Origin: Theristus sp. LFF4_11
Lineage: Eukaryota > Nematoda > Chromadorea > Monhysterida > Xyalidae
Length of the DNA stretch: 64,000 nucleotides
NCBI GenBank assembly: GCA_030248135.1
Contig: JASANC010002475.1
Span: 1 to 64,000, forward strand
Direction: 5' to 3'
The notes beneath the pieces were generated by a model. It worked only from the letters and a program-made list of their open reading frames with translations. It was not told where the DNA came from and made no database searches. Position numbers and translations under genes: made by a program. Positions 1,171 to 48,708 of the stretch are shown here, one piece after another (position 1 is the stretch's first letter; each line of letters opens with the position of its first letter).

Positions 1171-4100
1171 ATGCTGCTGGTGTCGTTCGCTCCATTTCTA
1201 TTGGCGCTTCTCCCGTGTGCTCTCGCATTCAAAGGGGTTCTACTGATTGCAGACGGTGGTAATGGCGGCCCCGACGGACAGGTCTACTCACCTGAGACAG
1301 GAAACTGCTCGATCAACAGTGGAAATTTCGGTACGACTGTTTTGTTTCTGTTTTTTTTTGCTGTTCGAATCGAATTAATTGTACGTACATCGAGTGCGTT
1401 TACAATGAACAAGAGAATGGCCAAAACGCAGCAGTGCATTCCACAATTGGTGGTACTGTTCTCGCCAAGTTCAGTCTTAAAAACAGTGTTTCTTTGAATA
1501 ATAACACAATTTTTAGGCAGGGTAATATAATCCAAGCTACGCTGTATCACATATGAAAATAACATGAATAATGCATCACAAAAACGGGAATATGTCAGAA
1601 TCAGTGACCAACACTGACCTTTTTTTAGTTTTTCAATGTACCGAATGGTATCGGGTTTGTCTGCAGTTTTGTGAATACTATGGTTGCCGCGAGACGTGTC
1701 TCGTCTCGTCATTTGTCTCGTCTCGAGCGATTTTTGGCTGTCTCGTGTCTCGTCTCGTCTCGAGACCCTCTGTCTCGTTGAACAGTCTCGTTAAGAATTG
1801 TTTCTTGTCTCGTGCGAATCAATTGTGCGTTTTTTATGAAACATGATGTTCATGAATTTCCAGCATTCCAACAGTGACCAGCATCCAGCACACCCAGCAC
1901 TGAAACCGTGTTTTTGTGGTTTGTTTTGTTGAATAAGAAATAAATGCTTTTTCGGCTTGTGCCCGGCCCCGGCGATTGGTGCTACTATTGACTGTCTGAT
2001 CTGATGGTTGGTGGATTGATCTGTCTTCTGTGGAAAAGGAAAAACGCAGAATTTTTTAGCATCATGCACTGCATCCTGCATTGCAAAACCTCCTGCACTG
2101 CATTCTGCACTGCACCGTTGAAAATGATTCTGAAACTGACGGTTTGTCTCGTTTCGTCTCGAGGATGTTGAAAAAAGGCTGTGACCCTCTGTCTCGTGTC
2201 TCGTCTCGTCTCTTCTCGTTTCGTGACCTTCTGTCTCGTGTCTCGTCTCGTCTCGCGACCCTCTGTCTCGTGTCTCGTCTCGTCTCGCGACCCTCTGTCT
2301 CGTGTCTCGTCTCGTCTCGTGGGTACCCTGTCTCGCGGCAACCCCAGTGAATACATATCCTGGATAAATATTCCGCAGTCACCTCTCCCTAAATTTTCAA
2401 TTAAAATGTTTAGTCCGTTTTCCAACAATTTTTTGACGATTGAATGTTTGGACGCATGTTTGGTTTATATCGCACCTCAGGCCGGCTGAGTGGCTCAGAG
2501 GATAGCACATGGGATTTCCAATCGGAAGGCCCGGGTTCGAATCCGCTCGTGACCACTCGGCTGCCCTGGGTTGCGTGGGGCTTAATGGTTCGGCAGCACA
2601 AACGTCGGCTTTCTTGATTCACAAGATTGCTGTTCCGGTGGCGAGGAACTTAGTTACATCGCGCCCATGCATACCAGCGCAGCTTGCCCAACGCCCACTT
2701 CTATGGTAGAAAAAACTGCTTCCAACGTCGCAGCCCATGTGGTGGACAATAAAAAATAGCGACACTGCCTTTCCCCAAGGGCGTTGCGTAAGGATAAAAA
2801 GGGGGCAACAAACAACAACATATCGCAGCTCAGATCTTCAGCTGTTTCCACAGTAAAAAATGAAGCAAAAGAAATTGGACATAACAACATGATACAATGT
2901 GTCCAGGCTTTATAAACGGATTTTTTTCTTTTTTTGACAATAAAAGAAAAACTTCCCACCCGTCAAAACTGCGCTCATTTTTTAAGAGATTTGAAATTGG
3001 TGTGTGTGAATGGCTCACTGGACTGCCAACCGATCCGAGCTGCTGTGTGTGATGACCGGTGGACGACGTTGGGTTTTTTACTTTTACTTTACTTTTACTC
3101 AATTAAAACGACTTCACTTTTATTAAAACGACGACGACAGACGATAGAAATAAAGAGGGACAAAAACGGCACGAACGGCACATGCTAAACTCATAAAACA
3201 CGGCACTTTTATAATCTACAAGAACGAATGAAAGAAAAATAGTTGAACAAAAATATAAGAAAAGTGTTGAGCATCTAGGAAAAAAGTAGATGAGCATTGG
3301 AAGTCAAGCGCTCTGTCAGAAACAGCTCACCGTAAACCCGGCTTTGTGTGAGAGTGCAGACACGAAGGCTAAAGTAGGACATTACAGTACCCTACTCCCC
3401 CATACGGAGCGCCCTCGCGACGTCACTCTCCCTACGCAGCCGAGTGTCTGGTGCACTGCCTGACCTGGGCACCTGCTTCCACTCATTTCAAAACTCCTAA
3501 ATGCTCCAACTCAAACGATAAAACCGAAATTGAATCACTTGAACTTTTGAGAAAATTCTAAAAAGTAAAACTTCAAAAGCTAGCAGCAAAAAAGAAAGCA
3601 AAGATCAACAACTGCCAAATTCGAAAACCTGAACTGCCAAAACTGAAAAACCTAAAAGCTATCCTGACAAACGAAAACAAAACCAAAACTAAACTGTCAC
3701 GATGATTGGAAATATGTGATCACGCACGGCAGTCGAATTGCGTCGAAAACCCCAAAGAAAAACCGCCAAAACTAAAAAAGAAGAAAAAACATTAAAACAG
3801 TTCACCCTCTCCCCACACTGAAAACGGGGGTAAAACAAAACAAATAAAACTATTACAAAACTGTTACAAATCAGCAGAAGAGTATGGCGCAACCTGCACT
3901 CTACGTCGCAGTAACTGAGACCTTAAATCAAATAACCGTGGCTAACAATAAAACTTCTACTGCGCTTCACTGCGCCACAACCAAACTTCTCCTCGCAGCC
4001 TTCTTCAGCAACGCCACCACAGCCAATCACGTTTTTGATCACGGAGGCCGTCCTCCGTTCGGTTTGAGTCTCGGAGACCGAAATAACTCCGTATCGGTTT

Positions 4101-7100: not shown

Positions 7101-10100
7101 CGTGACGATTTCGGGCGAATCGGCCGTGGAAGTTGGCGAAATCGGTCCAGAAACGAAAAACAAGAAAAGGGTGTTTTCCAGGGTATTTCAATGCGCTTAT
7201 AACAAAATTTGGGTTAGTTTTCTTACGTGAGCAACTCTAGACGCTGAATCGTGACGATTTCGGGCGAATCGGGCGTGGAAGTTGGCGAAATCGGTCCAGA
7301 AACGAAAAACAAGAAAAGGGTGTTTTCCAGGGTAATTCAATGCGCTGATCACGGATTTTGGGTTAGTTTTCTTACGTGAGCAACTCTAGATGCTGAATCG
7401 TGACGATTTCGGGCGAATCGGCCGTGGAAGTTGGCGAAATCGGTTCAGAAACGAAAAACAAGAAAAGGGTGTTTTCCAGGGTAATTCAATGCGCTGATCA
7501 CGGATTTTGGGTTAGTTTTCTTGTATGAGCAACTCTAGATACTGAATCGTGACGATTTATGGTGAATCGGCCGTGGAATTTAGCGAAACCGGTCCAGAAA
7601 TGAAAAACAAGAAAACGGTGTTTTCCATGGTAATTCATTACGCCGATCACGGCTTTTGGGTCAGTTTTTCTTTTGTGAGCGATTCTAGGTACTGAATCGT
7701 GACGATTTTGGGGAATCGGCCGTAGAAATGGCATAGGAGAAATCGGCCTAAAAAACGAAAAATGAAAAACCTGAGTTGTCCGGGGTTTAGAAGAATATGT
7801 GACCAACGAATTGTGATTTTGGTTTGACCTTCGGGGCTTATGTAAAAGTCAGAATATTATCTAAAAATGCGTGAGACGCATATAAAAGGAGGAATATGGC
7901 CTTGTGTAAGCAGTGAAAGACTTGGCTCGACAACGCTTTTCAAGTCTCTGATGTGGTACACACGGATACTAGTACATAAGGGTCATATTTTTGCGCCGCG
8001 TTTGTTTGTTTTTTTTGAAGCACGCCCCCCACCGATTCCGGAAACCCGAAGGTACCAAACTCCGGTGGGATTGGGGAATGGACGGCTCACCATCCCGTGG
8101 AACCAATACCCTCGGCATGTGAGGGGGGCAGCCTCTAAGCCCCGCTCTGTCCTGGGGGCACCAGTGATCTTAGCCCGATTTCGGTTTCGGTGGCCTGCGG
8201 TCGCTATATCCCCGGAGGGCAGCGAATCCGAAAGTTTCGTTTTCGTTTTCGTTTTGCTGAAAAGCGTAAAACTTTAAAGTTATTTTTTAATTGTCCTCTT
8301 CGATTTAATCTAAAATCACGCCATGTGCAAAATTCTGTAAATTCTGTGCAAAGACAGAAAAATCAGAGATTGCAAAACATTGTTGCATGTAGCTTTTTCG
8401 TTGTTGTTAACGTACGCACCGCTGTGTACACACCAGCACCAGTGACAAAAAGGAGTTGTCTTCCGTTGATTTTCACCTTTTTTACCGGTGTCAACTTCAA
8501 CTAGTGTGGCAGGATAAACCGTCTGTCCCGTGAGTCATTGCCTTTGCCACAGGAGACCTTGCGTTCCGCAATGCTTCTGCGATACAATTTGTCCTGGACA
8601 AACCAGTGTCAGCGAGCTAAAGTCTGATTGTTATTTTAGTAGTTTTAGTGGTCGCTAAATGCCCGAAATCCGCAAATGTGAAAGTTTCATTTGTCTACAA
8701 TACAAAGTACGAGGGTTGCCATGTGCAACCGAAATCATAAATAAACGGCGCAAAAATATGACTCTTATGTACTAGTATCCGTGTGTACCACATCAGAGAC
8801 TTGAAAAGCGTTGTCGAGCCAAGTCTTTCACTGCTTACACAAGGCCATATTCCTCCTTTTATATGCGTCTCACGCATTTTTAGATAATAAATGTATGCTT
8901 CAGAAAAAAAGGTATAAAAAAAAAGTTTGGGGGGCAGCAGCCTTCTGCCGATGTGCCACGGGCGTGCCACCGGTGGTTTACGTCAGTGGCGGGTGGAGAG
9001 GCGGCAGTGAGGACACGGCGACCACGGAGATCCTTGCATACAATGTGCTGACGCAGCAGACAACGGTGTTTGGTCACATGATGGTGGCCAGATTCTCCCA
9101 CCGAATGACGTGCATTGGGCAGGATCTTTATATCTGTGGCGGTGTTGACAACAATGAGAATGTCCTGAGCAGCTGCGAAGTGTGCCATGTGCCGCTCGGC
9201 AACTGCTGGCAGATTGCGCCAATGCCAAGTGCTGGTATGTTTTTTTGTTGTTGGAGTTTAATGGCAGCCACACGTTTGTGTCCTGGCGCTTCTTTTTTAA
9301 AACGCACGCGCACGTGGCATCGACATGCTCATGCTCATGATCCACTAGCGCGCGTGCACACGCTCCGGCCCCAACAAAAACTTGTTCAAAACGCAATTGT
9401 TCTGACATCTACCTTCTTGAAAAGGCTTGGCTTAGGTTAGGATTAGGTTAGAAATAGTTTTGGCTTAAGATTAGGCTTTAGGATTAAGATTTGAATCAAG
9501 TCCGTTTTAGCAATGTCCGACAACGCGCGTGTTTTACCTGAAGCGGATTTTAGAAAAGAAGGGCAGCCCGTTTGTGTGCAGTTGGACAAAGAGCATATAA
9601 ACGAAACGAAGTGTTTATGTTGTGTTTGGCGACCACATGCAGTGTTTGTTCGATTACAAAGAATTGAAACAATTATACACGTCGTGGCATTTGCGGTTCC
9701 TATCCGAATCATATCATGGGGTAGACTGCGAACCACCGACACTTTTTCCAGATGTTCTCGAATCAAAGTTTTCACAGATGAAAAGAACACGCAAACATTG
9801 GTTTTTTCCAACCCTAATTTCATGCAAAGAACGTTGTCTAAAAACTCGTTGCATCATTTTTGAAAAAGGGCATTTTTCGGCCTCGCTCAAATTTGTTTGC
9901 AATAAGATCGCGCATCAGCCAGTCTTTGACAATGTACCCGAAAAGATATTCCATTTTTTACAGCGATAAGGCTTAATCATAACAACAATTTTAAATTTTG
10001 ATTCTGTTTCCGCATCGCGGCTTTCTATAAAACCGGAATATGTATGTACAATGTACACTTGGACTGAATGTTACAAATTGTTTCTAAAAATGGTTGAAAA

Positions 10101-11380
10101 GCACTAAAGTCGGCTCTTTCAAACTCAAATCTGCAGACGTAACCACGAATGCAATTCCACTGAAATTTTGTTTTGCAATAAAAACGCATGCTCAACAAAA
10201 TTAGCATTTTCACGATTTTGTGGTACATTTTGTAATTTTGTGGCTAGGAAAATGCTCACTGTGGGATTTTGTTGAACTTGTATGTACAACTGGTAACCCA
10301 GCTCAACACATTTGTGAATAACTTGTTGGCGATCTCAGATTGTATGATTATTGTTGACATGAGAAATCTTGTCATGAGCTTTTTTCAAAGGTTTTTATTT
10401 CTGAGTTCGTCAAAGTTAACAAATGATTTTTTCTCAAAATTTTCTGAATTGTAGGCAGTTGCATTTTGCAAAAGAGAAAAAACAAATTACATGCTTAAAA
10501 GTCTTTCATGCTTCATGTTCGTGCACCAAACCGTGAACTTACGTGATTCACTTCACTTTTCAGAAGCAGAAAAAGCTGCAGTGCAGAAGAAAAAATCCCT
10601 TCCCAGTACTATAGTCTGGTGCTCAGAGACGCTCAGATTTCAATGATACGCAGTTTGGTATCAATATTGATATCAATACCAATTTTAATATCAGGTTTTA
10701 ATAAGTTTGACCTTTTTTAGGTTAAAAGACAGCCACTCACTAATATTAGTTCTCGTCCGTCTTGATTTAGACTCGATTGTGTAAAAAAATTAGCAGCTTA
10801 ATAAACTCCTTAAATGTTTGAATATACGTTTGAACTATCCTTGTGCATTGCGATGGCAAGTTTTTGGTGGCACACAATCTCATAAACTCAATGTTCACTG
10901 TTGAATAATACCGATTAATTGCAAACTAATTTTATTTGCACAGCTGGTAGGCCATTCATGGTCGAGATGGACGGCATCGTGTACGTCGGTGCGGCGAGGG
11001 GCTGGCCCAAGTCGATGTACGCGTACGACACGCGCCACAACGAATGGAGCAAGAAGGCAGACATGGCCAATGAACACTATTTGGGTGGAGCCGTCGCCAT
11101 CAACGGCTACTTGCTCGTGTGTGGCGGTGCTGGGACGGCCGCCTGCGAGGCATACTACCCGCGCGAGAACGCCTGGTACCCACACCATCCGATGCTCACT
11201 GCTCGTTGGAGGCACTCGATGGTCGTCTATGACGGGCAAGTGTACGCGTTTGGTGGCTATCTGCTCAAGTCAGTCGAGAAATACTGGCCGGCCGAAGAGC
11301 AGTGGTCGCCAATGCCTGGCCTCATCGAAGTGTACTACAGCGGCATGGCAGTTGCTGTTGACACGGACTGCGCAAAGTGA
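1171..11380 (+). CDS. Secreted Kelch-repeat beta-propeller protein, copy A (3 exons)
   Basis: Model: exons 1171-1330, 8938-9234 and 10944-11380, 297 residues. Phases agree (1, then 1) and donors are GTACGA and GTATGT. Exon 1 encodes a signal peptide (MLLVSFAPFLLALLPCALA, cleavage likely after ALA) and a first strand ending in QVYSPETGNCS. Exons 2 and 3 give about five Kelch units with YVSGG, YICGG, YVGAA, LVCGG and YAFGG cores, each followed by a Tyr-containing strand and a Trp (NEW, NAW, EQW). The exon 1 strand probably closes a six-bladed propeller. There is no BTB or BACK domain, so this is not a KLHL ubiquitin adaptor; an extracellular binding role is inferred. Oddity: the copy B acceptor of exon 2 is deleted here, and the only candidate (AG at 8936-8937, or 8939-8940, both in frame) follows purines rather than a pyrimidine tract, so correct splicing is doubtful. 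Confidence 0.75.
1690..2340. repeat. TCTCG-rich minisatellite, copy A
   Basis: Pentanucleotide-based arrays (TCTCG, with GACCCTCTG spacers) occupy about 1,690-1,800 and 2,145-2,340 within intron 1 of Kelch gene A. The same arrays with different copy number lie at 36,470-36,570 and 36,925-37,050. The long open frames over them are products of the repeat. Confidence 0.85.
2484..2820 (+). mobile_element. tRNA-headed SINE, family 1, copy 1
   Basis: The head has tRNA-like A and B boxes (GGCTGAGTGGCTCAGAGG and GGTTCGAATCC), followed by an unrelated body of about 260 bp and an A-rich tail with CAACAACA units. The same element occurs at 37,186 and 61,295. It is shared by both Kelch duplicons, so this insertion predates the duplication. 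It is not a functional tRNA gene, because no full cloverleaf with a matching acceptor stem is visible. Confidence 0.85.
3001..4858. mobile_element. Non-autonomous LTR element (TRIM-like), copy A only
   Basis: Two 386-bp direct repeats (3001-3386 and 4473-4858) start TG and end CA, and I find one difference between them, which indicates a recent insertion. The internal 1.09 kb has no gag or pol; the 176-residue antisense frame there resembles nothing I know. The element is flanked by GATTT at 2988-2992 and 4859-4863. The paralogous site at about 37,690-37,705 is empty, with a single GATTT. Eight extra bases (2993-3000) separate the left GATTT from the LTR start. I cannot see a convincing primer-binding site, so strand is left open. 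Confidence 0.8.
5120..5563. mobile_element. Left part of a Tc1/mariner-type MITE, broken in copy A
   Basis: It starts with the same TIR (CAGTGGCGGCCAAAAGTG, TA before it) as the intact MITE at 37,954-38,577 of copy B. Homology stops at 5563, where the satellite and TIR block begins. The right TIR is missing in copy A, because the deletion that follows the insertion removed it together with the start of Kelch exon 2. Confidence 0.8.
5860..6340. repeat. 171-bp tandem repeat, about 3 units
   Basis: Units recur with a period of 171-172 bases (AGCTGGGACACTTTCACAG at about 6,056 and 6,228; a diverged unit near 5,885). The unit is unrelated to the adjoining 149-bp satellite except for the junction around 6,340-6,440. 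Open frames across it are by-products of the repeat. Confidence 0.8.
6445..7800. repeat. 149-bp satellite array, copy 1
   Basis: The period is 149 bases exactly over the central units (CGTGAGCAACTCTAG at 6481, 6630, 6779 and 6928). Central units are nearly identical, and both edges diverge, as expected of unequal exchange. Each unit contains GACGATTTCGGGCGAATCGG. It is followed by about 60 bp of linker and then the TIR element at 7861. Confidence 0.93.
7861..8883. mobile_element. TIR element with about 145-bp inverted ends
   Basis: The left arm (7861-8005) and right arm (about 8740-8883) are inverted copies starting CTAAAAATGCGTGAGACGC and ending with its complement; flanks TTAT and ATAA extend the palindrome. 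The interior (about 735 bp) holds a dispersed GC-rich segment (8,015-8,260) that reappears inverted at 29,085-29,190, and no transposase. The same ends bound 27,363-30,827. Confidence 0.85.
9282..9568. mobile_element. 287-bp MITE with 9-bp target duplication (MULE-like)
   Basis: Flanked by CGTTTGTGT at 9273-9281 and 9569-9577; copy B has a single CGTTTGTGT at this place with no insert. The ends are imperfect inverted repeats (CTTCTTTTTTAAAA inside the left end, TTTTAGAAAAGAAGGG inside the right). A 9-bp duplication suits Mutator-like elements. The middle contains TTAGG-type repeats (9,425-9,490), also seen near 18,075. Confidence 0.8.
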
Positions 11381-11988
11381 ACGGAATGTGGCAGTGATGG
11401 GGCAGTCGTGTGAGTAGTGTTGCAAACACACCAAGCGCATGGCGAAAACACACAGCGACAAACAGTGCCAATTTCTATTTGTGCCAGGTTTACAGGTGCA
11501 GTGTGTGTGTGTGCTGGTGCGGTTGCAAACTTCTTCATGCGTGCCTGTGCCAATCCGTGAAACAGAAGTGAATTTGTTTGTTTTTTATTTTCTAGCACAT
11601 CAAACTGTGTGATCGTTGTTAATGCCGCCCACTCCCACTTCTGTTTATGCAAACAGCCATTTTTCTTTGACAGTCTACCGCTGGTCAGCAGTGAAAACTT
11701 GGGACTAACGTTTTTTCACTTTGTTTTCTTTTACTAACCACATGACGAAAAAAGTGCCAAACGTGTGATGATTGGCAGATTTGATTATTGAACTTTTTTT
11801 GTTCTTTACTGCTTATCGTCATTCCAATGTCTTGTCAACAAGCACTGTGTTTTATGAAGCGCCGCGGTCAACAATATTCAATTTTTGTTGTCAGTTAATC
11901 AACAGCAAAAAGCAGTTTTGAATTGTTTTGTTGTTAAATTTTCTGCACACCGCCGCAACAAACCTACCGCAACAGCCGTAACCGCTTT
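11381..11988. other. Region between Kelch gene A and the minus-strand gene, no gene seen
   Basis: The first 130 bases are the Kelch 3' UTR and closely match 48,709-48,850. The rest aligns only loosely with 48,900-49,245. It also serves as the 3' flank of the convergent minus-strand gene ending at 11989. No coding sequence is recognised. Confidence 0.6.
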
Positions 11989-15774: not shown

Positions 15775-15811
15775 TCATCCGTGTCTTGCGGAATGCCACA
15801 CGTTACACATA

Positions 15812-15973: not shown

Positions 15974-15999
15974 TCGGTATAAGATTGACATTACAAATC

Positions 16000-25130: not shown

Positions 25131-25199
25131 TCCTCCGCACACGAGCACAGCAACGTTTTTTTTGTAAAATTGTGATTTTTTAAGTTCGTAGATTTCGAC

Positions 25200-32780: not shown

Positions 32781-32787
32781 AAATTTA

Positions 32788-33480: not shown

Positions 33481-33489
33481 GTTCAAAAC

Positions 33490-34400: not shown

Positions 34401-34403
34401 ATT

Positions 34404-35953: not shown

Positions 35954-38900
35954 ATGCTGCTGGTGTCGTTCGCTCCATTTCTATTGGCGCTTCTCCCGTG
36001 TGCTCTCGCATTCCAAGGGGTTCTACTGATTGCAGACGGACTTAACGGTGGCCCCGACGGACAGGTCTACTCACCTGAGACGGGAAACTGCTCGATCAAC
36101 AGTGGAAATTTCGGTACGACTGTTTTTCTTCTGTTTTTTTGCTGTTCGAATTGAATTAATTGTACGTACATCGAGTGCGTTTACAATGAACAAGAGAATG
36201 GCCAAAACGCAGCAGTGCATTCCACAATTGGTGGTACTGTTCTCGCCAAGTTCTGTCTTAAAAACAGCGTTTCTTTAAATAATAACACAATGTTTAGGCA
36301 GGGTAATATAATCCAAGCTATCACATATGAAAATAACATGAATAATGCATCACAAAAACGGGAATATATCAGAATCAGTGACCAACACTGACATTTTTTT
36401 AGTTTTTCAATGTGCCGAATGGTATCGGGTTTGTCTGCAGTTTTGTGAATACTAGGGTTGCGCGAGTCGTGTCTCGTCTTGTCATTTGTCTCGTCTCGAG
36501 CGATTTTTGGCTGTCTCGTGTCTCGTCTCGTCTCGAGACCCCTCTGTCTCGTTGAACAGTCTCTTTGGGATTTTTTTCTGGTCTCGTGCGAATCAATCGT
36601 GCGTTTTTTATGAAACATGATGTTCATGAATTTCCAGCAGTCCAACAGTGACCAGCATCCAGCACACCCAGCACTGAAACCGTTTTTTTGTGGTTTGTTT
36701 TGTTGAATAAGAAATAAATGCTTTTTCGGCTTGTGCCCGGCCCCGGCGATTGGTGCTACTATTGACTGTCTGGTCTGATGGTTGGTGGATTGATCTGTCT
36801 TCTGTGGAAAAGGAAAAACGCAGAATTTTTTTAGCATCATGCACTGCATCCTGCATTGCAAAACCTCCTGCACTGCATTCTGCACTGCACCGTTGAAAAT
36901 GATTCTGAAACTGACGGTTTGTCTCGTTTCGTCTCGAGGATTTTGAAAAAAGGCTGTGACCCTCTGTCTCGTGTCTCGTCTCGTCTCGTCTCGTGACCCT
37001 CTGTCTCGTGTCTCGTCTCGTCTCGCGGGTACCCTGTCTCGCGGCAACCCTAGTGAATACCTATCCTGGATGAATATTCCGCAGTCACCTCTCCCTAAAT
37101 TTTCAATTAAAATGTTTAGTCCGTTTTCCAACAATTTTTTGACGATTGAATGTTTGGACGCATGTTTGGTTTATATCGCACCTCAGGCCGGCTGAGTGGC
37201 TCAGAGGATAGCACATGGGACTTCCAATCGGAAGGCCCGGGTTGGCCGGGTTCGAATCCGCTCGTGACCACTCGGCTGCCCCGGGTTGCGTGGGGCTTAA
37301 TGGTTCGGCAGCACAAACGTCGGCTTTCTTGATTCACAAGTTCCGGTGGCGAGGAACTTAGTGACATCGCGCCCATGCATACCAGCGCAGCTTGCCCAAC
37401 GCCCACTTCTATGGTAGAAAAAACTGCTTCCAACGTCGCAGCCCGTGTGGTGGACAATAAAAAATAGCGACACTGCCTTTCCCCAAGGGCGTTGCGTAAG
37501 GATAAAAAGGGGGCAACAAACAACAACATATCGCAGCTCAGATCTTCAGCTGTTTCCACAGTAAAAAATGAAGCAAAAGAAATTGGACATAACAACATGA
37601 TACAATGTGTCCAGGCTTTATAAACGGATTTTTTCTTTTTTTGACAATAAAAGAAAAACTTCCCACCCGTCAAAACTGCGCTCATTTTTAAGAGATTTTA
37701 AAAATCACTGTGTATTTCAAACCAAACAAAACAAAGCCAACAAATGAACAAAGTGGACAACCGAAAACTGACAACCTTTTCCAACATCAATAGTATAACA
37801 AGAATGCCGGCAACAAGCAAAATTATGCGATTCAGAAACATTATCCGTTGCCATAAAAAACGGATTTCTTTATCAGTTTCATGCTCCAACCGCACAATTT
37901 TCGGCATTCGTTTCTCTCAAAAAAAAAACAGTTAGCAACAGCTTGTCAACAAACAGTGGCGGCCAAAAGTGTTGGAAAAGTGTTGGAACGCTGCGCGCGT
38001 GTGTGCTGTGTACTGTGTATTGCGCGTGTGTTGCATCAGCCGTACAAACACTATAAAAGAATCCCATGCTATTTTTTGTTTTTTAGACCACTGAGTGTAT
38101 TTAGTATACTATTCGCAGGTTTTTTTCACTGAACCGTGCATTTATTTGACAAATACCGAACATTACAACAACACACCTCCATTGCATGTGACTGGCAGTA
38201 AAACTGATTCAAAATCATTAGCAAGAAAACTATTCTCGAAGTATTAGCGTTTCTTGTTGTTTGAATTATCTCACAGATGTGTATTGCGTTCATGTTTCGG
38301 GTTCCAGACGGGTTGTATTGTTCATTCCGCTATATTCTCTTGCCAAAAAAATTTGAAACAGTTTTACTGCCAAATGGAGGTGTGTTCGGTATTTATTAAA
38401 TAAATGTATACTTCAGCGAAAAAAATCCTTCGGATAGTGTATTAGATACACTCAGTAATCACAAAAACAAAAAATTAGCATGGGATTCTTATAATACCGT
38501 TTGTAAGGCTGATGATACACACGCGCAACACACGCGCACACATGCGCGCAGCGTTCCAACATTTTTGGCCGCCACTGTAGGTGTCGAGGTCGACAAAACC
38601 TCTGATTTCTGTTGATTGCCCACGTTCACCCAAGTGCACCATTTGGCTGCTCACTGCAGGAATCCCTCAAGCCGCCTACGCCGCAGCAGCCTTCTGCCGA
38701 TGTGCCACGGGCGTGCCCCCGGTGGTTTACGTCAGTGGCGGCTGGAGAGGCGACGGTGAGGACACCACGACCACGGAGATCCTTGCATACAATGTGCTGA
38801 CGCAGCAGACAACGGTGTTTGGTCACATGATGGTGGCCAGATACGGCCACGGAATGACGTGCATCGCACAGGATCTTTACATCTGCGGGGGTTGGGACAG

Positions 38901-41900
38901 CCATAATAATGTCCTCAGCAGCTGCGAAGTGTGCCATGTGCCGCTCGGCAACTGCTGGCAGATTGCGCCAATGCCAGATGGTGGTATGTTTTTTGTTGTT
39001 GGAGTTTAATGGCAGCCACACGTTTGTGTGCGGTTGGACAAAGAGCATATAAACGAAACGAAATTAAACAAGTGTTTATGTTTTAAGTGTTTGGCGATCA
39101 CACGCTGTTTTTGTTCGGTTTACAAAGAATTGAAACAATTATACACGTCGTGGCATTTGCGGTTCCGATCCGAATCATATCATGGGGTAGACTGAGAACC
39201 ACTGACACTTTTTCCAGATGTTCTCGAATCAAAGTTTTAACAGATGAAAAGAACACGCAAAACATTGGTTTTTTCCAACCCTAATTTCATGCAAAGAACG
39301 TTGTCTAAAAGCTCGTTGCATCATTTTTGAAAAAGGGTATTTTTCGGCCTCGCTCAAATTTGTTTGCAATAAAGTCGCGCACCAGCCAGTCTCTGACAAT
39401 GTACCGGAAATGATATTCCATTTTTTACAGCGATAAGGCTTAATCATAACAACAATTTTAAATTTTGATTCTGTTTCCGCATCGCGGCTTTCTATAAAAC
39501 CGGAATATGTATGTACAATGTACACTTGGACTGAATGTTACAAATTGTTTCTAAAAATGGTTGAAAAGCACTAAAGTCGGCTCTTTCAAACTCAAATCTG
39601 CGGACGTAACCACGGATGCAATTCCACTGAAATTTTGTTTTGCAATAAAAACGCATGCTCAACAAAATTAGCATTTTCACGATTTTGTGGTACATTTTGT
39701 AATTTTGTGGCTAGGAAAATGCTCACTGTGCGATTTTGTTGAACTTGTATGTACAACTGGTAACCCTGCTCAACACATTTGTGAGTAACTTGTTGGCGAT
39801 CTCAGATTGTATGATTATTGTTGACATGAGAAATCTTCTCATGAGCTTTTTTCAAAGGTTTTTATTTCTGAGTTCGTCAAAGTTAAAGATAATGTGATCT
39901 AATTATGCGTATTTATCATTTATAATTAGGTAATTTACTCACTAATTATGTTAGTTCTCGCCTATATAACTGTGATGTTTCTTGTACATGGGGAGTCAGT
40001 TCTGAAATCGACATTAAAGTTATCTCTCTACATCGGCTCATCGTTTGTGGTGAGCCCGACGTCTACAACACGCAGCCTTCGCTATTGAGATGGATCGTCG
40101 TCAAAGATGTTCGTTTCGTTCGTTTCGTCGTAAGCCACTGTTATCGTCCAGTCATCATGACCGCACGTCGTCGTCATCCGCAGAGAACACAGAGCTCGCA
40201 AGCAGGGACAGTGACCGTGGTGATGATGCCGATACAAGCATGGTGAAGTTGAAAGGGTGGGATGTTACGCAGTTGATCAAGCGGTGCTGTGAGCGCAAAG
40301 ACAGGAAGCGTCTCAACCTGCTATGTGCTGTGTTTAAGCAAAAGAAGGAGTTGAGTGAGACGTTACGTTGTAAAATGAGGGCGACCATTTCACCGTCTGA
40401 GACTTTGCCGTTACGTGAGCTCGCTGACAGAGTGAGGGACTTTTCGTCGCAGTATTTTGATTATAAGCGTCACCTGAAAATCAGCAGATCGAATGATCTA
40501 GATGAGTCTGAGTTGTACAGTTCATTTCAAGATGACACAGAGACAGATGACGCTGGGTGCAGTTTCCAAGATGAACCAGAGACGGATGACGTTGAGAGCA
40601 GTACTCTGATAGCGACAGCAATCAGTGCTACAGTGACGGATCGGGATGAGACGCCAATCGTGACTGCCTGTGAATCAGATGATACGGTTTCCGGTCCGAA
40701 CCAGTGCTGTGCGTGCATTTCGCGTACTTCGAGGAGAGGCCAAAAAGCACAGAGGTATCCCCCACCGGCCCTGAAAAAGGGTGTGCCTCTGCTTAAGAGT
40801 GTACGTGGTGGCAAATCTGTTTCAACTGTACCGGCCTTGAAAAAAGGTGTGCCTCTGAATAAGAGCGCACTGGGTACCACTGCACCGGCCTTGAAAAAAG
40901 GTATGCCTCTGAATAAGAGTGCATCAGGTGTGACCCAGCAGAACGCCAGTGACGCAGCGGGATCGGCACAAAGTGCTACCACAAATGATCTGATTCTGCA
41001 AATGCTGATGCAGCAACAACAAATTCTGGCTGCACTGACTAATCGTGATGAAAAACAAAATGGTGGCAATAATAAGTGTGATCCAAACAGTGATTCTGAA
41101 TGTTGTCACAATAACCACAGTCAAAACGCCCGTACGCTGTTAACGGCACAATTTGAAACGTTTGATATCGACGGCAAACTGAGTTTCAAGGTGTGGAGTG
41201 AAAATGTTCGAAGCCGTCTGGAAACATTCCCGGTTGATGAAAAAACGGCTATCGCTCATGTGCGTTTGTGTCTGGGTCAAAATGCACGTAATGCGCTTGA
41301 TACACAACCAGTTCACGTGCGAACGAGTTTGAATAAAATGTTCGAGTATCTGAATCGTTGCTACGGTTCTCGTAACGTGCGTATTAGTGCAACATCACAG
41401 TTCATAAGAGCGCGCCGTGAAAGTAACGAATCAGTACGTGCGTTTGCCATGCGGTTGGAGAATTTGTACTTGGAAATGGGAGGTCAAGCGTGTGATGAGA
41501 ATGGTCGATACGAAGATCCAATCGATGCAATACTTGCAGACCTATTTTCGGCCAGGTTGAGCAATGCAGCTTTTGAGTCAAAGGCAACGGAAATGGCATG
41601 CGAACAATACACGTTCCGCCAAATCGTTAACAAGATCGATCAAATGGAAGAGAATCAAAAGTTCAAAGCCAATGAACGTACGTTTGAACGTCGTGAAAAC
41701 CGTGACAGTCAGTACGGCTATCGTCAGAACGGTCGTCGTGATTATCATGACAATCGGCGTAGTGGTTATCAGACCTTCATGCAACCTCGGCAGTTGAACA
41801 ACGGAAATCAGTTTGTCAGCCAAAACAACTGGCAAAATCGACAGCCGAACTATGGCTATAAGTCTAACGGCCATCAGTGGAACATGGGTTATCATGCGTT

Positions 41901-44900
41901 CAACGGTAATCGTAATGTGCAGAATGGAAATTTCCAAAACGGACAGCATGATCATTGGAACAGACCGTTTGAAAATCAGCAAAATTTCAACAACAACCTC
42001 ACAAACGTGCCACAGCCAAATGCTATTGAGTTCCAAACAGACAGGAATGGCTACGCGAATTTCCAAACAAAGAAAGTTGGCATAATGACAGATCAGAATG
42101 CGAACACGACAGATTGTGAATGTGACGGTGAAGACAAGTTTGAATCGCCATTGTTGAATGGACAGCAGGTCAACTACTACTGTGTGGACACTGGATCCGA
42201 CGAGACATTGTTGTCGAGCAACTGTGCAAAGGAACATGGATTAAGAATTTTTCGGACGAGAAAAACGCTCAAAGCGGTGAATGGATCGTCTGTAGGCGTA
42301 GAAGGAATGTGTCACGCCAGACTTTCAGTAGACGGTAAAACTGTGAAAAACTGTGGATTCCTTGTGTCACCAACCTTGAATGGTGATGTAGACATGATTA
42401 TTGGAAGGAATAAATTGCGTGAACTTGCAGTAAAAGTGATCACAAAAAGCGGCAAACCGTTCCGATTGATGAAATGCTATCCCGCAGATGGCAAGGGTAG
42501 TGATGTGTCTTTCGTTAAAATGGCTCGTGAATGTTGCCCTGTTACTGACGACGATGAAGTGCGTTTGATGCCAACAAAGGATTCCTCCAATGCTGGATTT
42601 CAACATGACATTCCGAAAAGAAACCGCCGACAGCGTCGAGCACAGAAGCAGCAACGAAGCGAAAAAATGTCGTCGAAGGGCGATGATGATTTGTCTTCTG
42701 AATCGAAAATTGGAGACGCGATGGATACGCAAAGAGGCGAAATTTGGAACATACCAAAAGCGCAAAAGGATGCATCCATCTCATCGTATATACCCGGAAA
42801 ATCTACTACTACTAAATTTACAATTTGTCTGTCTGTGTGTGGCACTTTTTTGCAATTTGAATTGGCGCCCATTTTTGCTACTTAAGAAAACTCCATCTCA
42901 ATTTCCTTAACCTATTTTTTTTATTAATGCCAGTTGAGATTGTTTTCTCAAAACGTCGCTCTTCATAGCTGGAGTCATCATGATACTCTTTGGTCAACAG
43001 AGACAGTTCAGCGCAGCATAGGCAAATGGAAGCGTGGCTGATCAAAACTTGATGATCGACTGGGAAAGATGTAAAAAAACCGTCTTTGAAAAAAGTTTGA
43101 ACTTTTTTGTTTTTAAACATCGGGTTGCAAAACGCACATCGACATCGGCATTGCAAGTTGCACTTTGGATTCAAAACAAGTAAATTTCATTGAAATTGAT
43201 ACTCCATGTTTCATTTTCAAATTGATACGTATACTCCATGGTTATGAGCGATAATTTCAACGTAACGCACGATGAGCAACTGGCAATTGTTGCTGCTCAA
43301 AACTTGACGAGCGACTGCGAAAGATGTAACAAAACCGTCTTTGAAAAAAGTTAGTTTTTTAATTGGGTCGCAATGGTATTTACCATTCATTTCCACTTTG
43401 CAAAATGCTTGGGTTATGCTGGGGTAAACGGGTAAAAAGAAGCAATGACTGCAAAACGAAATTAAAAACGTCACTTTTTTGTTTCTTCTATTCATTTTCA
43501 CTTTACAAAAAAGGCTTATGTTAGGGTAACCGGGTAAAAGAAGCATTACCTTTTTAAAATGGGTAATTAAAAAACGTTAATTTTTATATTTTTTATTCAA
43601 TCTTACTTAACTTGCAAAAAAGGCTTGGCTTAGGTAAACGGGTAAAAGAAGCATTAGCTTTTTAAAACGGGTAAGTGAAAAAAAACGTTAATTTTTATGT
43701 TTTTATTCAATCTTACTTCACATACAAAAAGGATTGACTTAGGTTAGGGTTAACGGGGAAAAAATAGCAAAATCATAAACTTCGCATTTTCACTTTACAA
43801 AAAAGGCTTGGCTTCGGTAAACGGGTAAAAAAGCATTAGCTTTTTAAAACGGGTAAATGAAAAAAAACGTTAGTTTTATATTTTTTATTCAATTTTACTT
43901 CACTTACAAAAAGGCTTGCCTTCGGTTAGAGTAAACGGGTAAAAATAGCAAAATCATAAACTTCGCATTTTTTATTAATTTAAATACATTAAAAAATATT
44001 GTATTGTAGGCGACTTCACGGCAGCACAAGGTAAATTTTCTTCAGGGTTATTATTCAGTAAACGTTACTGTTTTTTTCTTTCTAAGTCAATGCCACTTCA
44101 CCAAAAAGGCTTGGCATTGATTAAGCCACATACGCTCGGGTCAATTGGCTAGTCATCATCTACTACTACTAAATTTACAATTTGTCTGTCTGTCTGTCTG
44201 TCTGTCCGTCACACTTTTGAATTGGCGCCCATTTTTTGTTATTTTTGCCATTTTTGCCATTTAAGAAAGCTTCATCCCAATCTCAATCTTTATCTATTTT
44301 TAATATCATCACTTGAAATTGTTTAAACAAAGCGCCGCTCTTCATAACTGAAAGTCATCATGATACTCTTTTCAAGTTGATACTCTACGGTTATGCCTGT
44401 GAGCGACAGTTTTAACGTAATGCACGGTGGGCAAATGGCATATGTTGCTGCTCAAAACCTGACGAGTGACTGCGAAAGATGTAACAAAACCGTCTTTGAC
44501 AAAAATTAGTTATTTTTAATTGGGTCGCAATGGTATTTCCCTATTATTTTCACTTTGCAAATGGCTTGGGTTATGTTAGAGTAAACGGGTAAAAAGAACA
44601 AGGACTGTATAACGAGACTTAAAAACGTCACTTTTTTGTTTCTGCTATTCATTTTCACTTTACAAGAAAGGCTTGGCTTATGTTAGGGTAAACGGGTAAA
44701 AGAAGCATTAGCTTTTTGAAACGGGTAATTGAAAAAACGTTGTTTTTATATTTTTAATTTTACTTCACTTACAAAAAGGCTCGACTTAAGTTAGGGTGAA
44801 CGGGTAAAAATAGCAAAATCATAAACTTCGCATTTTCACTTTGCAAAAAAGGCCTGACTTATGTTAAGGTAAACGGGCAAAAAAGCATTCGCTTTTTTAA

Positions 44901-47900
44901 AACGGGTAATTGAAAAAAACGGTAATTTTTATACTTTTTATTCGATCTTACTTCACTTACAAAAAGGCTTGACTTAGGTTAGGGTGAACGGGTAAAAATA
45001 GCAAATCATAAACTTAGCATTTTCACTTTACAAAAAGGCTTGGCTTAGGTAAACGGGTAAAATCAATCTTACTTCACTTACAAAAAGGCTTGACTTAGGT
45101 TAGGGTGAACGGGTAAAAATAGCAAAATCATAAACTTCGCATTTTCACTTTACAAAAAAGGCTTCGCTTATGTCAGGGTAAACGGGTAAAAGAAGCTTTA
45201 GCTTTTTAAAACGGGTAATTGAAAAAACGTTAATTTTTATACTTTTTATTCGATCTTACTTCACTTACAAAAAGGCTTGACTTAGGTTGGGGTGAACGGG
45301 TAAAAATAGCAAAATCATAAACTTCGCATTTTCACTTTACAAAAAAGGCTTCGCTTATGTTAGGATAAACGGGTAATTGAAACATTAGCTTTTTAAAACG
45401 GGTAATTGAAAAAACGTACATTTTTATACTTTTTATTCAGCTTTACTTCACTAACAAAAAGGCTTGACTTAGGTTAGGGTGAAAGGGTAAAAATAGCAAA
45501 ATCATAAACTTCGAATTTTCACTTTACAGAAAAGGCTTCGCTTATGTTACGGTAAACGGGTAAAAGAAGCATTAGCTTTTTAAACCGAGTAATTGAAAAA
45601 ACGTTAATTTTTACATTTTTTATTCAATTTTACTTCACCTACAAAAAGGCTTGCCTTAGGTTACGGTGAACGGGTAAAAATAGCAAAATCATAAACTTCG
45701 CATTTTTTATTTATTTAAATACATTAAAAAATATTGTATTGTAGGCGGCTTCATGGCAGCACAAGGTAAATTTTCTTCAGATTGGTTATTCAGTAAACGT
45801 TACTGTTTTTTCTTTTAAATTCAATGCCACTTCACCAAAAAGCTTGGCATTGATTAAGCTCGGGTCCATTGGCTAGTTCCAAAACTACAAAATTACCGGC
45901 AACGTAGCGGTGAAGCACACGATTGCTACTGTGAACAATCTACCGCTTCGAAACAGACCTCGCCGAATCGACGACATCAATACTCGAACTCTGCAATCGC
46001 AAGAAAAAACGGCGGATAAAGCGTGGTTCAACGTGGAACCCGGAAGTTACCAAGTCGGAGATTCAGTTTGGGTCGCGGATACGGTTGCGCAAACAACAAG
46101 GAAAAAGAAGTTGAATCCCCCGCATCCGCTACGTGGCAAAATTGATAAGATTGTTCCACCTAAATCAGCGCAGATTTTGCTGGATAGTGGGAAAATTATT
46201 GAGAGGCCACTTGAAGAATTGAGACACGGCTCAAAGGAATGCGAACAGGAGTGCAATATCAGGAGGATGAGTATCGCGGGAAGGACAACGACGACGGAGG
46301 ACGAAATGGAGTGATACTTTTGGCGTTGTGATTTTTTGTGAATTTTTTGGTATTTGCGCTAATAGTAGGTAATTATTGGTGATTACTGTGATAATTATTG
46401 TGTTAATTAGAGTTCTGTTTCTATATAACCATACTAATCCAGTATTCTGGGTCTCTCGATAAACGACTGAACGAGGACAACAAGATCGTTTGTGGTGAGT
46501 CGACAAGCACGATCATCGTCACCTTCTGTGGAGTCAGATACGCTACTGTCCGTCTGTTCTTAGTCGCTTTATGCCCCGTGAGGTGCGACTATTCGTCAGC
46601 AATGGCTCGCCGTCCAGATCAACAAAAAAGGCAAATCGTCTACCGGCAGCAAGAGTTCGACAGATACGACCTGTTTTACTTCTCCGACTACTTCCAAAGT
46701 CCGGAGCCCGTCCACAGAGCCGCCGACCGCTACATGACGCATTATTTTTACGGACCGACGGTGTCAAAGGAGCAAAGGCGTCGTCTGCTGAACATTCCGT
46801 TGCCGCAGCTCGTCGTGTGGCTTTTACCGAAGATGATGACAGCTGAAGAACCACATGAGAAACATCAGGCAGTTGGGATCCCCGTCGAAGCGGCTGAGAA
46901 ACGCAAAGTTGAACGAATCAAAGCGGCCCGATGCAAGGAAGTGCGCAAGAGAAGAATAAAAAGAGCAACCCAGGCGAACGTCGAAAAGTTGACAAACGTC
47001 GACAAGAAAGCGACCAAAAGTGTGCCGATCATTCACGGAGAAAAGCACGTGATTCGTTTGAAGACGGAAGACGCGATGCACAACTGTGACGTGAAAGCAA
47101 CGGCAGAATCGATTGGAGAGGTTGTGTCAATCAAAACAGCCGCGACATCAAGTGCCATCGAGTTCAAGGCGTGCGTCGTTGACAAAGTCGCACCAACACG
47201 TCGCGTGTTCTACCGAGTTGGGTTCGTGCCGATGACGCCGATGGACCAGCAGCACCAGCAGCAACCGTCCTGCCGGTCAATTGTGTTGTGCTGTCGTGAT
47301 GTTCGTCTAACCAAGGCGTCGCAACATGTTGAAGCGCGCGGTGATCCGAAGCGTCTACGTCAACAATTGCTCGGTCGTCATGTGCGCTGTTCCGGCGTCC
47401 GCTCTCCCTCAGTGTCGTCCATCGTGTGCCACTCACAATGCTGGCTCGACATGATGATGTTTGGTCGACGTGTGCGTTCGTCAGCATTTCGATCACCAAG
47501 TGATAAAATTTATGCCAAGAATGATCTTTTACCACCGTGATGTGATACGCTTTCCACTACTTTTTCTTCTGTTTATAGGGGGAAGACTAATAGTAGGTAA
47601 TTATTGGTGATTACTGTGATAATTATTGTGTTAATTGGAGTTCTGTTTCTATATAACCATACTAATCCAGTATTCTGGGTCTCTCGATAAACGACTGAAC
47701 GAGGACAACAAGATCGTTTGTTTAACAAATGATTTTTTTCTCAAAATTTTCTGAATTGTAGGCAGTTGCATTTTGCAATAATGAAAAAAACAAATTACAT
47801 GCTTAAAAGTCTTTCATGCTTCATGTTCGTGCACAAAACCGTGAACTTACGTGATTCACTTCACTTTTCAGAAGTAGAAAAAAGCAGCAGTGCAGAAGAA

Positions 47901-48708
47901 AAAATCCCTTCCCAGTGCTGTAGTCTGGTGCTCAGAGACACTCAGATTTCAATGATACGCAGTTTGGTATCAGTTTTATATCAATACCAATTTTAATATC
48001 ACGTTTTAATAAGTTTGACCTTTTTTAGGTTAAAAGACAGCCACTCACTAATATTATTTCTCGTCCGTCTTGATTTAGACTCGATTGTGTTTAAAATTAG
48101 CAGCTTAATAAACTCCTTAAACGTTTGAATATACGTTTGAACTATCCTTGTGCATTGTGATAGCAAGTTTTTGGTGGCACACAAGCTCATAAACTCAATG
48201 TTCACTGTTGAATAATACCGATTAATTGCAAACTAATTTTATTTGCACAGCTGTATACCCATTCATGGTCGAGATGGACGGCTTCGTGTACGTCGGTGCG
48301 GCGGGTGACTGGCAGAAGTCGATGTTCGCGTACGACACGCGCACCAACGAATGGAGCAAGAAGGCAGACATGGCCAATGAACACTGGCTGAGTGGAGTCG
48401 TCGCCATCAACGGCTACTTGCTCGTGTGTGGCGGTTATGCTGGGGGCACGGGGACGGCCGCCTGCGAGGCATACTACCCGCGCGAGAACGCCTGGCGCAC
48501 ACAACATTCGATGCTCACTGCTCGTTTTGATCACTCGATGGTCGTCTATGACGGGCAAGTGTACGCGTTTGGTGGCTATGTTGGCGCTGGGCAAAAGTCA
48601 GTCGAGAAATACTGGCCGGCCGGAGATCAGTGGTCGCCAATGCCTGGCCTCATCGAAGTGTACTGCAGCCGCATGGGAGTTGCTGTTGACACGGACTGCG
48701 CAAAGTGA
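35954..48708 (+). CDS. Secreted Kelch-repeat beta-propeller protein, copy B (3 exons)
   Basis: Model: exons 35954-36113, 38660-38983 and 48251-48708, 313 residues, with consistent phases and ordinary acceptors (CACTGCAG, TTTGCACAG). Same architecture as copy A: signal peptide, then Kelch units with YVSGGW, YICGGW, YVGAAG, LVCGGY and YAFGGY cores, and a C-terminus ending DTDCAK. It retains eight codons at the start of exon 2 that copy A has lost. Relative to A there are about 39 replacements, and exon 3 has a four-codon and a three-codon insertion just after the GG of two units. Intron 2 is about 9.3 kb because a retrotransposon sits in it. This is the copy more likely to be functional. Role inferred: secreted binding protein; the ligand is unknown. 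Confidence 0.85.
36470..37050. repeat. TCTCG-rich minisatellite, copy B
   Basis: Counterpart of the array at 1,690-2,340, with fewer repeat units in the second block. It lies in intron 1 of Kelch gene B. The length difference between the two copies shows ordinary slippage since duplication. Confidence 0.85.
37186..37533 (+). mobile_element. tRNA-headed SINE, family 1, copy 2
   Basis: Orthologous to the SINE at 2484, in intron 1 of Kelch gene B, with a small duplication in the head (a second GGCCGGGTT) and a short deletion in the body. A and B boxes and the CAACAACA tail are present. Confidence 0.85.
37954..38577. mobile_element. Tc1/mariner-type MITE, intact in copy B
   Basis: About 624 bp with terminal inverted repeats (CAGTGGCGGCCAAAA at the left, TTTTTGGCCGCCACTG at the right), followed by TA. 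Inner inverted segments also pair (CATGCTATTTTTTG near 38,060 with its complement near 38,475). There is no transposase. It ends 82 bases before the start of Kelch exon 2. Confidence 0.85.
39887..40047 (+). repeat. Left LTR of composite retrotransposon
   Basis: The inserted sequence begins after the host TTAA (39,883-39,886) and ends TCGTTTG at 40,047, directly before the PBS-like TGGTGAGCCCGACGTC. It contains TATATAAC, a likely TATA element. It shares only short blocks (TAGGTAATT, GTTAGTTCT-like, TATATAAC, terminal TCGTTTG) with the right-hand LTRs, so it belongs to a related but diverged LTR type. Confidence 0.65.
40090..42801 (+). CDS. Ty3/gypsy-type Gag and aspartic protease, interrupted by Helitron
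   Basis: Open from 40,090 with an ATG 43 bases after the PBS. About 904 native codons precede the Helitron junction; the frame continues by chance to 42,885. An Arg/Ser-rich N-terminus is followed by three tandem ALKKG(V/M)PL(N/L)KS repeats (about residues 225-280), a capsid-like helical domain (FETFDIDGKLSFKVWSENV to about residue 520), an Asn/Gln-rich nucleocapsid-like part without a CCHC knuckle, and a retropepsin with catalytic DTGS (about residue 700) and the flap-distal DMIIGRN motif. Reverse transcriptase, RNase H and the integrase core are absent. The frame is undamaged despite the diverged LTRs. The downstream remainder is at 45,877-46,314. Confidence 0.85.
42802..44152 (+). mobile_element. 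Non-autonomous Helitron 1
   Basis: Starts TCTACTACTACTAAATTTAC after A and ends CTAG before T, the Helitron A-to-T insertion rule. A short stem (GCTT...AAGC) lies about 20 bases before the CTAG end. A GTCTGTCTGT motif follows the 5' end. The interior carries GGCTTGACTTAGG-type tandem units and no Rep/helicase. It interrupts the gag-protease frame. Confidence 0.88.
44159..45876 (+). mobile_element. Non-autonomous Helitron 2
   Basis: Same 5' end (TCTACTACTACT) and 3' end (GGCTAG, preceded by the AGCTT...AAGCT stem) as Helitron 1, which ends only 6 bases upstream. The intervening TCATCA is retrotransposon sequence, so these are two insertions in the same orientation. It carries a longer tandem array (about 187-bp units). 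Confidence 0.88.
44770..45690. repeat. 187-bp tandem repeat inside Helitron 2
   Basis: The segment CTTCGCATTTTCACTTTAC recurs at about 45,138, 45,325 and 45,512 (period 187), with less regular units to the left. Each unit has AAAAGGCTTGACTTAGGTTA and GTGAACGGGTAAAAATAGC. Shorter homologous units occur in Helitron 1 at 43,500-43,960. Confidence 0.85.
45877..46314 (+). pseudogene. Integrase C-terminal end of the interrupted retrotransposon frame
   Basis: Open in the same phase as the upstream gag-protease frame once the two Helitrons are discounted. The core PGSYQVGDSVWVADTV, then HPLRGKIDKIVPPKSAQILL, then REL-like EELRHG, fits the SH3-like C-terminal part of Ty3/gypsy integrases. It ends with a stop about 45 bases before LTR B1. 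Without the rest of pol it cannot act as an integrase. Confidence 0.7.
46359..46492 (+). repeat. LTR B1 (134 bp)
   Basis: 134 bases, matching 47,587-47,720 with one difference that I can see. TATATAACC is inside; it ends TCGTTTG followed by TGGTGAGTCGAC (PBS-like). It is the right end of the gag element and the left LTR of the small element. Confidence 0.85.
46578..47540 (+). CDS. 320-residue ORF of the small LTR element, unknown
   Basis: Starts 85 bases after the PBS, possibly at the second Met (46,602). The N-terminal half has an ordered look (RYDLFYFSDYFQSPEPVHRA, then LLNIPLPQLVVWLLPKM), followed by a Lys/Arg-rich stretch (KRKVERIKAARCKEVRKRRI) that could bind nucleic acid. No protease, RT or zinc knuckle. 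By position it is Gag-like, but I cannot show homology. Possibly a protein that co-opts the machinery of a fuller relative. Confidence 0.6.
   Translation: MRCDYSSAMARRPDQQKRQIVYRQQEFDRYDLFYFSDYFQSPEPVHRAADRYMTHYFYGPTVSKEQRRRLLNIPLPQLVVWLLPKMMTAEEPHEKHQAVGIPVEAAEKRKVERIKAARCKEVRKRRIKRATQANVEKLTNVDKKATKSVPIIHGEKHVIRLKTEDAMHNCDVKATAESIGEVVSIKTAATSSAIEFKACVVDKVAPTRRVFYRVGFVPMTPMDQQHQQQPSCRSIVLCCRDVRLTKASQHVEARGDPKRLRQQLLGRHVRCSGVRSPSVSSIVCHSQCWLDMMMFGRRVRSSAFRSPSDKIYAKNDLLPP
47587..47720 (+). repeat. LTR B2 (134 bp), right end of the composite
   Basis: Follows the purine tract and is followed by TTTAA (47,721-47,725). The left flank of the whole insertion is GTTAA (39,882-39,886). Copy A has the uninterrupted AAAGTTAACAAATG at about 10,414. 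This defines one 7.8 kb insertion with a 4-5 bp target duplication. Confidence 0.85.

Follow-up and report, generated by a model that had tools for sequence, protein, structure and literature searches.

The binding face of a secreted Kelch beta-propeller has probably been under recurrent diversifying selection in this nematode, a reading to which we give a probability of about 0.7. We take this selection as the main cause of the pattern described here, with exchange and homogenisation coming second. The analysed window covers bases 1-64,000 of contig C1595, which is 108,440 bases long, in an assembly of 159 Mb. It contains two three-exon genes on the forward strand, copy A (1171-11380) and copy B (35954-48708). 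As judged from their sequence, both encode a Kelch propeller with a putative signal peptide in open frames, the exon 2 acceptor of copy A being doubtful.

Gene structure and copies in the assembly

Exon 1 of copy A (1171..1330) is an open frame running to a GT donor. It carries the start codon, the signal peptide and, by an assignment made by eye, strand B and the BC loop of blade 1; MLLVSFAPFLLALLPCALA was likewise judged by eye to be the signal peptide. Exon 2 (8938..9234) covers blades 2-3 and its acceptor was inferred: the usual acceptor and the first ~9 codons are absent next to a MITE-like insert, and ggggcag is a possible in-frame acceptor. Since the usual acceptor is missing and an in-frame alternative is present, copy A may be altered or silent. 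Intron 2 (9235..10943) differs from that of copy C at 8 of 1705 aligned bases, and exon 3 (10944..11380) encodes blades 4-6, the closing strand and the stop.

Several repeats lie around these exons. Two inverted arms (7855-8012 and 8732-8889, 96% complementary) end ~50 bases 5' of copy A exon 2 and adjoin the site of the missing acceptor. Intron 1 of copy A contains two identical 300-base direct repeats (2997-3296 and 4469-4768, 100%, ~1.5 kb apart) resembling the ends of LTR-type inserts, in a region where B and C are not alignable. Arrays of a 149-base tandem repeat are found at 6314-7805 and ~25156-27250, one of them in the same intron, and related arrays occur on the contigs of copies F and D. 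Arrays of a 16-base repeat are found at 29783-30125 and 57074-57369, plus an inverted one at 53.8 kb. An Rfam scan of the 64,000-base window gave no match.

Copy B has the same organisation, with exon 1 at 35954..36113, exon 2 (blades 2-3) at 38660..38983 and exon 3 (blades 4-6, closing strand and stop) at 48251..48708. Exon 2 scores over the Kelch_1 cut-off and exon 3 matches Kelch_1 with E 3.7e-25. Intron 2 (38984..48250) is expanded by repeats and a retroelement-like ORF, an open frame of 943 residues with gag-type aspartyl protease matches at 40054-42882, and its length is partly explained by this insert. The spliced protein has 313 residues, with a hydrophobic start (a signal peptide by eye) followed by Kelch repeats. 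It matches Kelch_1 with E 3.1e-33 and 113.4 bits (cut-off 20.1), three stretches pass individually, and six blades were counted by eye. At E 0.001, the Pfam scan of spliced B returned Kelch-type families alone, with no BTB domain and no WD-repeat family; no SPRY family appeared in the scan either.

Searched at the DNA and protein level, the assembly yielded six close copies or partial copies, A to F, which are paralogues and may in part be alleles. Copies A, B and C are three-exon genes with open frames. Copy C lies on the same contig in inverted orientation; the partial copies are D (C2946, exons 2 and 3), E (C2033, exon 3 alone) and F (C1964, exons 1 and 2). The splice acceptor of copy C exon 3 is duplicated across ~14 bases; the second alone is in frame and leaves about one codon fewer. 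E and F carry complementary exons, and they were counted as separate copies because 211 aligned bases of intron 2 differ by 12.8% between them. F is collinear with B over ~8.5 kb in two blocks and E is collinear with the arms of A and C, so part of the six copies may be alleles. The ends of C1595 are inverted copies of each other (1-19,082 versus 91,307-104,828), making the contig partly palindromic, with aligned blocks ~95-97% alike and 250-base patches ranging from 0% to ~10% divergence. Remoter family members are located on C1365, C1809, C2365 (two), C65 and C1930, with weaker matches elsewhere. In a set of 5.8 billion proteins, three relatives were found, 22-31% identical (best E 5.7e-14).

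Divergence between copies and tests for selection

Divergence by region was compared for 15 pairs of copies, the fifteenth (E-F) having no shared exon. The labels of copy A exons 2 and 3 begin two bases early in this comparison, without effect on the outcome. In all ten pairs formed without E, each exon that the two copies share differs more than both introns, intron counts being restricted to blastn-aligned stretches and hence biased toward low divergence. The first-pass annotation of this window had claimed that the exons diverged faster than the introns, and this holds for every pair without E. Between A and C, introns differ at 20 of 4073 bases (0.5%) and exons at 39 of 893 (3.8, 2.0 and 6.2% for the three exons; p 3e-16). 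Between A and B the counts are 71/896 for exons and 109/3678 for introns (odds ratio 2.8, p 2.6e-10), and between B and F they are 36/483 and 59/3825 (p 6e-12), with 3.8 and 9.3% in the exons and 1.0 and 2.6% in the introns. In B-D, the introns differ by 1.6 and 2.3% and the exons by 9.6 and 8.0%. Fisher's test, applied to 4 of the 15 pairs, gave odds ratios from 2.8 to 9.3 with p from 2.6e-10 to 2e-17. None of the four pairs of E with A-D shows an exon excess: exon 3 differs by 6.9-9.9%, and the introns, over 296-344 aligned bases, by 8.2-12.5%.

The edge of exon 3 was analyzed in a five-copy alignment. The 50 columns before the exon contain no mismatch, copy C having its duplicated acceptor at that place, and bins within the exon differ by 2-14%. 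This agrees with the near-identity of the bases near the acceptor reported in the first-pass annotation. The intron stretch 10,021-10,420, said there to differ from copy B at about 6 in 400 bases, was recounted at 6 mismatches in 399 aligned bases. Farther upstream, the five-copy alignment reaches 12-59%, because E has a different intron, part of which is misaligned. Between lineages, divergence of the downstream flank is 14.8-18.1% over 515-533 aligned bases, which is more than in the exons. Thus, "faster than introns" is correct, and "fastest part of the locus" would be wrong.

Four other Kelch pairs were taken as controls, of which one was interpretable. This diverged, secreted tandem pair on C2365 shows the usual order, with exons more alike: two exon blocks are ~90% identical, one inter-exon block 72% and one mixed block 80%. 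The C2758 arms, C491 and C1749 were compared without exon assignment and have no bearing either way.

Among the aligned codons of A and B, 40 carry a replacement and 13 a silent change, of which 25 and 1 fall in exon 3, close to the earlier figures of about 39 and 13 (24 and 1 in exon 3). The four-codon and three-codon indels described for exon 3 are both present. However, the argument for selection drawn from these counts does not stand, since 686 nonsynonymous and 199 synonymous sites make 40:13 approximately the neutral expectation. Indeed, the pairwise NG86 dN/dS of A-B is 0.89. Across 14 testable pairs, gene-wide dN/dS ranges from 0.71 to 1.62 and exceeds 1 in nine, with no pair tested for significance. 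Gene-wide dN/dS was therefore rejected as proof of selection, its values being near 1. Family-wide values not above 1 had been named beforehand as evidence against diversifying selection, and the gene-wide values come close to this; what speaks for selection is a class of codons with omega above 1, together with the position of the variable sites on one structural face.

The codon class was detected with a self-coded GY94 model (F3x4), comparing M2a with M1a on few copies from one assembly. In exon 3, M2a is favoured with 2dlnL 76.7 and places 13% of codons at omega ~21. The corresponding 2dlnL values are 21.4 for exon 2, 41.7 for exons 1+2 and 58.7 for exons 2+3; on a star tree, they are 82.3 for exon 3 and 28.3 for exon 2. 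M2a can be inflated by recombination and by multi-base mutations. When codons with any pair differing at two or more bases were removed, exon 3 retained a 2dlnL of 8.9 (tree) or 11.7 (star), and exon 2 fell to 4.6, with loss of significance. Support for selection is thus good in exon 3 and weaker in exon 2.

Location of the variable residues

The variable residues were placed on the Kelch blades from the alignment, from M2a and, for exon 3, from a structural model; all positions are given on copy B, forward strand. By eye, most variable blade codons follow either the final GG of strand B (BC loop) or an AR-type motif before strand A (DA loop). Codons 30-31 of exon 1 (36041..36046), in the BC loop of blade 1, are hypervariable: M2a gives P 1.00 at codon 30, which reads G/L/Y/S in A, B, C and F. 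In exon 2, alignment and M2a identify as hypervariable codons 5-6 in the DA loop of blade 2 (38674..38679) and codons 78-82 in the BC loop of blade 3, directly past GG (38893..38907). Codons 61-64, in the DA loop of blade 3 directly past AR (38842..38853), are variable on the same evidence, and codons 28-33, in the BC loop of blade 2 directly past GG (38743..38760), on the alignment.

In exon 3, alignment, M2a and model were combined for every region. Residues 18-21 (48304..48315), spanning the BC loop of blade 4 and the start of strand C, are hypervariable, with R/G/W/Y/D at residue 18 across the copies. Residues 43-47 (48379..48393) form a variable DA loop in blade 5, and the BC loop of the same blade (residues 60-68, 48430..48456) varies in sequence and length. 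The DA loop of blade 6 includes residues 92-93 (48526..48531), which read WR/FD/AY/TW/YE, five distinct pairs in five copies. The BC loop of that blade (residues 109-114, 48577..48594) again varies in sequence and length. Finally, residues 136-142 (48658..48678) correspond to the loop before the closing strand of blade 1 and to its first residue.

The model was obtained for exon 3 alone with AlphaFold2 from a five-row alignment (mean pLDDT 88). The best 50 PDB chains listed for it (TMq 0.77-0.90) are all Kelch domains or designed Kelch proteins, which for exon 3 supports four-stranded blades, and six of them are KLHL12 with a peptide (6ttk, three chains; 8oio; 8rbh; 6v7o). With DA and BC loop limits that we set from the DSSP string of the model and the Kelch motifs, 23 of 28 hypervariable residues fall in loops making up 58 of the 151 residues (hypergeometric p 2e-7). 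As a rotation control, one of 150 rotations reaches 23 hypervariable residues in the loops. The residues outside are 21, 31, 73, 82 and 83. Variable positions number 26 of 58 in the loops versus 15 of 93 elsewhere in the exon, and among 14 M2a sites with P >0.9, 12 are in loops; of the other two, one lies where strand C begins and the other within strand A. In the loops, pN is 19.3% and pS 10.7%; elsewhere in the exon they are 4.1% and 5.0%. This near equality outside the loops indicates that constraint on the remainder of the exon is weak or at most moderate, and pN there falls below intron divergence in B-D only (0.9%). Aromatics came to 23% versus 10% in the comparison made for hypervariable residues, whose list was hand-picked and differs from the rule used for the loop counts.

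In KEAP1, the corresponding loop positions presumably contact NRF2. Altogether, the model supports a location of the variable residues on one predicted binding face, the surface that Kelch domains use for peptide binding. In the available text on the KLHL20 Kelch structure, BC and DA loops shape the substrate surface (PMC6720452). The idea of diversifying selection on a recognition-type secreted protein, already put forward in the first-pass annotation, is thus upheld by the site classes and by this single structural face.

Possible causes and related systems

Selection on the loops would operate if they bind a variable outside partner, which might be a host, microbial or mating molecule, so that new loop variants would be favoured. 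Contact with a host or a microbe is more likely than gamete recognition. Recent copying, or gene conversion from copy to copy, would keep the introns of a lineage similar, and some exon patches might be exchanged between lineages. Divergence at predicted partner-contact residues has the appearance of an arms race in the evolution of recognition.

The strongest rival, a real possibility that may be part of the truth, is that the exons are old and the introns young. Balancing selection would keep exon lineages and gene conversion would homogenise introns, so that the exon excess would mostly be retained age rather than fast new change. Long-kept exon lineages under balancing selection have been argued for MHC exons. 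In favour of this explanation, silent sites are raised in the exons as well. NG86 silent divergence is 9.1% in A-B and 11.1% in B-D, and silent single-change codons exceed introns in all four pairs tested (A-B p 0.006, A-C p 0.005, B-D p 0.0001, B-F p 0.03). This raised silent divergence is not predicted by selection on amino acids alone. Moreover, the A-C introns, at 0.5%, are below their own flanks (5.5% upstream, 3.7% downstream), and divergence along the A-C arms is uneven, with 5-10% in some 250-base windows of non-coding sequence. Exon patches also cross the intron lineage split, for example the VGAG loop common to B and C. However, the silent excess is local: silent divergence amounts to 7.9% at up to three codons from a hypervariable one, chiefly in exons 1 and 2, and to 3.3% farther away (2.0% in exon 3), similar to most introns.

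The distribution of splits also speaks against a purely old origin of the exons. The introns show a nearly conflict-free division: all 21 informative sites of intron 1 give AC|BF, the start of intron 2 gives 30 AC|BDF and 4 ACD|BF, and its last 460 bases give 7 AC|BD and 1 AD|BC. Copy F is alone in 55 differences at the beginning of intron 2; these probably stem from faulty alignment around an insertion. In the 250 bases downstream of the gene, 21 sites give ACE|BD and 6 give others. Exon 1 agrees with the introns (3/3), whereas seven different splits are found in exon 2 and eight in exon 3, a number of which are mutually incompatible. Such conflicts fit codons that changed repeatedly, exon patches passed between copies, or a combination of the two. 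Age by itself, moreover, would not place the changes on one face.

Targeted hypermutation or programmed editing of loop codons would be an improbable explanation, and so would exon exchange with spliced transcripts as the template. Whole codons are replaced between A and C (24, 5 and 2 codons with one, two and three base changes) against an intron divergence of 0.5%, and the divergence excess ends near the exon edges. Programmed variation has a nematode precedent in the HYP locus, as described in the available part of that work (PMC11228951). Such a process, however, would have to target about twelve short loops that are spread over three exons and line up with the protein structure. As to templated exchange, single-exon queries gave no adjoining exon 2 and exon 3 matches, of the kind an intronless copy would give, among the matches listed. 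It is a long shot that the nematode makes a repertoire of secreted Kelch "paratopes" by exon-limited replacement of loop codons, through programmed editing or spliced-transcript-templated exchange. If it did, a six-bladed propeller with variable loops on all blades would amount to an antibody-like recognition system.

Ordinary recent duplication with relaxed constraint or pseudogene decay is very unlikely. Gene-wide dN/dS near 1, pN close to pS outside the exon 3 loops and the loss of the usual exon 2 acceptor of copy A next to an insert are in its favour. On the other hand, the exons present retain open frames with frame-preserving indels, variable positions crowd the loops, and exons more diverged than introns are impossible by decay alone. 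As the whole cause, relaxed constraint was ruled out by the open frames and the location of the variable sites; it could apply to copy A if the transcript of that copy is not spliced. Least probable of all is an assembly artefact, with loop differences arising as consensus errors or haplotype chimeras: haplotig-like contigs were kept (F resembling B over ~8.5 kb, E the A/C arms) and C1595 is partly palindromic, but sequencing errors would strike introns equally and break frames, whereas the copies, on four contigs, keep open frames and differ in frame-preserving ways centred on loops.

The preferred reading, diversifying selection on the propeller face, can be compared with several known systems, here as they are presented in the available text of each source. 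The first-pass annotation knew of no described family with this combination. Its exon/intron pattern has, in fact, been published for the SSSGP genes of the Hessian fly, whose coding regions are more diverged than introns and flanks, which the authors explained by positive selection and a proposed homogenisation of the non-coding parts (PMC2955719). Both families have clustered tandem or inverted copies, secreted products and inverted exon/intron conservation; SSSGPs, unlike the Kelch copies, have 50-200 residues and mature parts that can hardly be aligned (PMC2955719). In contrast to these gall-midge salivary proteins, the 313-residue protein studied here retains its Kelch scaffold, and change is centred on loops.

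The HNWD genes have reportedly been described as NLRs. In the Podospora genes het-d and het-e, which belong to this group, a WD-repeat beta-propeller has four residues per repeat under diversifying selection (PMC1805685). A propeller, a selected protein-binding face and exchange between family members are thus shared with the Kelch copies (PMC1805685). HNWD genes, however, serve allorecognition and swap WD repeats as units, whereas the present protein is a secreted Kelch protein. Cyst nematodes have a comparable secreted binding scaffold in their SPRYSEC effectors, in which the sites under selection lie in extended loops on a single surface; the scaffold there is a SPRY domain delivered to plants, and here it is Kelch (PMC5071358). 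A search of the assembly for pectate lyase gave no match, and its control was equally silent.

Nematode HYP genes resemble the Kelch copies in that extreme variation is confined to a single part of a gene for a secreted protein, and they vary by motif rearrangement at single-gene loci (PMC11228951). The Kelch family, unlike HYP, has several gene copies, which vary by codon replacement and short loop indels, and no HYP-type tandem motif domain was seen in their aligned exons. The fold and the partner-binding loops are those of KLHL/KEAP1 Kelch domains (PMC6720452). KLHL/KEAP1 proteins differ in being BTB-Kelch ubiquitin ligase adaptors, whereas here a signal peptide was recognised by eye, with no BTB match. 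Tachylectin-2 has a propeller fold and belongs to a different protein family. In corals, this putative immune lectin shows, like the Kelch copies, high amino-acid variation and positive selection (PMC2880987). No secreted hypervariable or expanded Kelch family was recognised in the open-licence PMC literature, among the matches listed. Thus, as far as the available text of these sources extends, the inverted exon/intron pattern, a selected propeller face and selected nematode loops are already known, and a secreted Kelch family combining them did not appear among the papers listed.

The present reading would add a secreted Kelch propeller to the scaffolds evolving a hypervariable binding face (SPRY, WD40, Ig and MHC). 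With introns as a neutral yardstick in the same genes, the family offers a natural case for separating diversifying selection from retained age or conversion. Its near-constant scaffold should make ligand screens with the natural copies straightforward.

Some further observations concern the assembly. COX1 gave no match in it. In a search for SL1, 50 of 43,697 candidates were scored and the controls were silent. The TTAGGC unit is that of nematode telomeres; a four-unit TTAGGC pattern has 8,669 overlapping matches, with many internal-looking arrays among the matches listed, against 0 for the reversed control and 0 for TTAGGG. TTR-52-type proteins are a nematode family, and TTR-52 has 8 matches in the assembly versus none in 14 control genomes (prokaryotes as far as named). 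Together, these two results point to a nematode. Finally, a TPR-repeat exon is located on C1595 at 78.5-78.9 kb (L046:4526-4948); Pfam gives TPR only, and the exon presumably resembles the transcription factor Ctr9.
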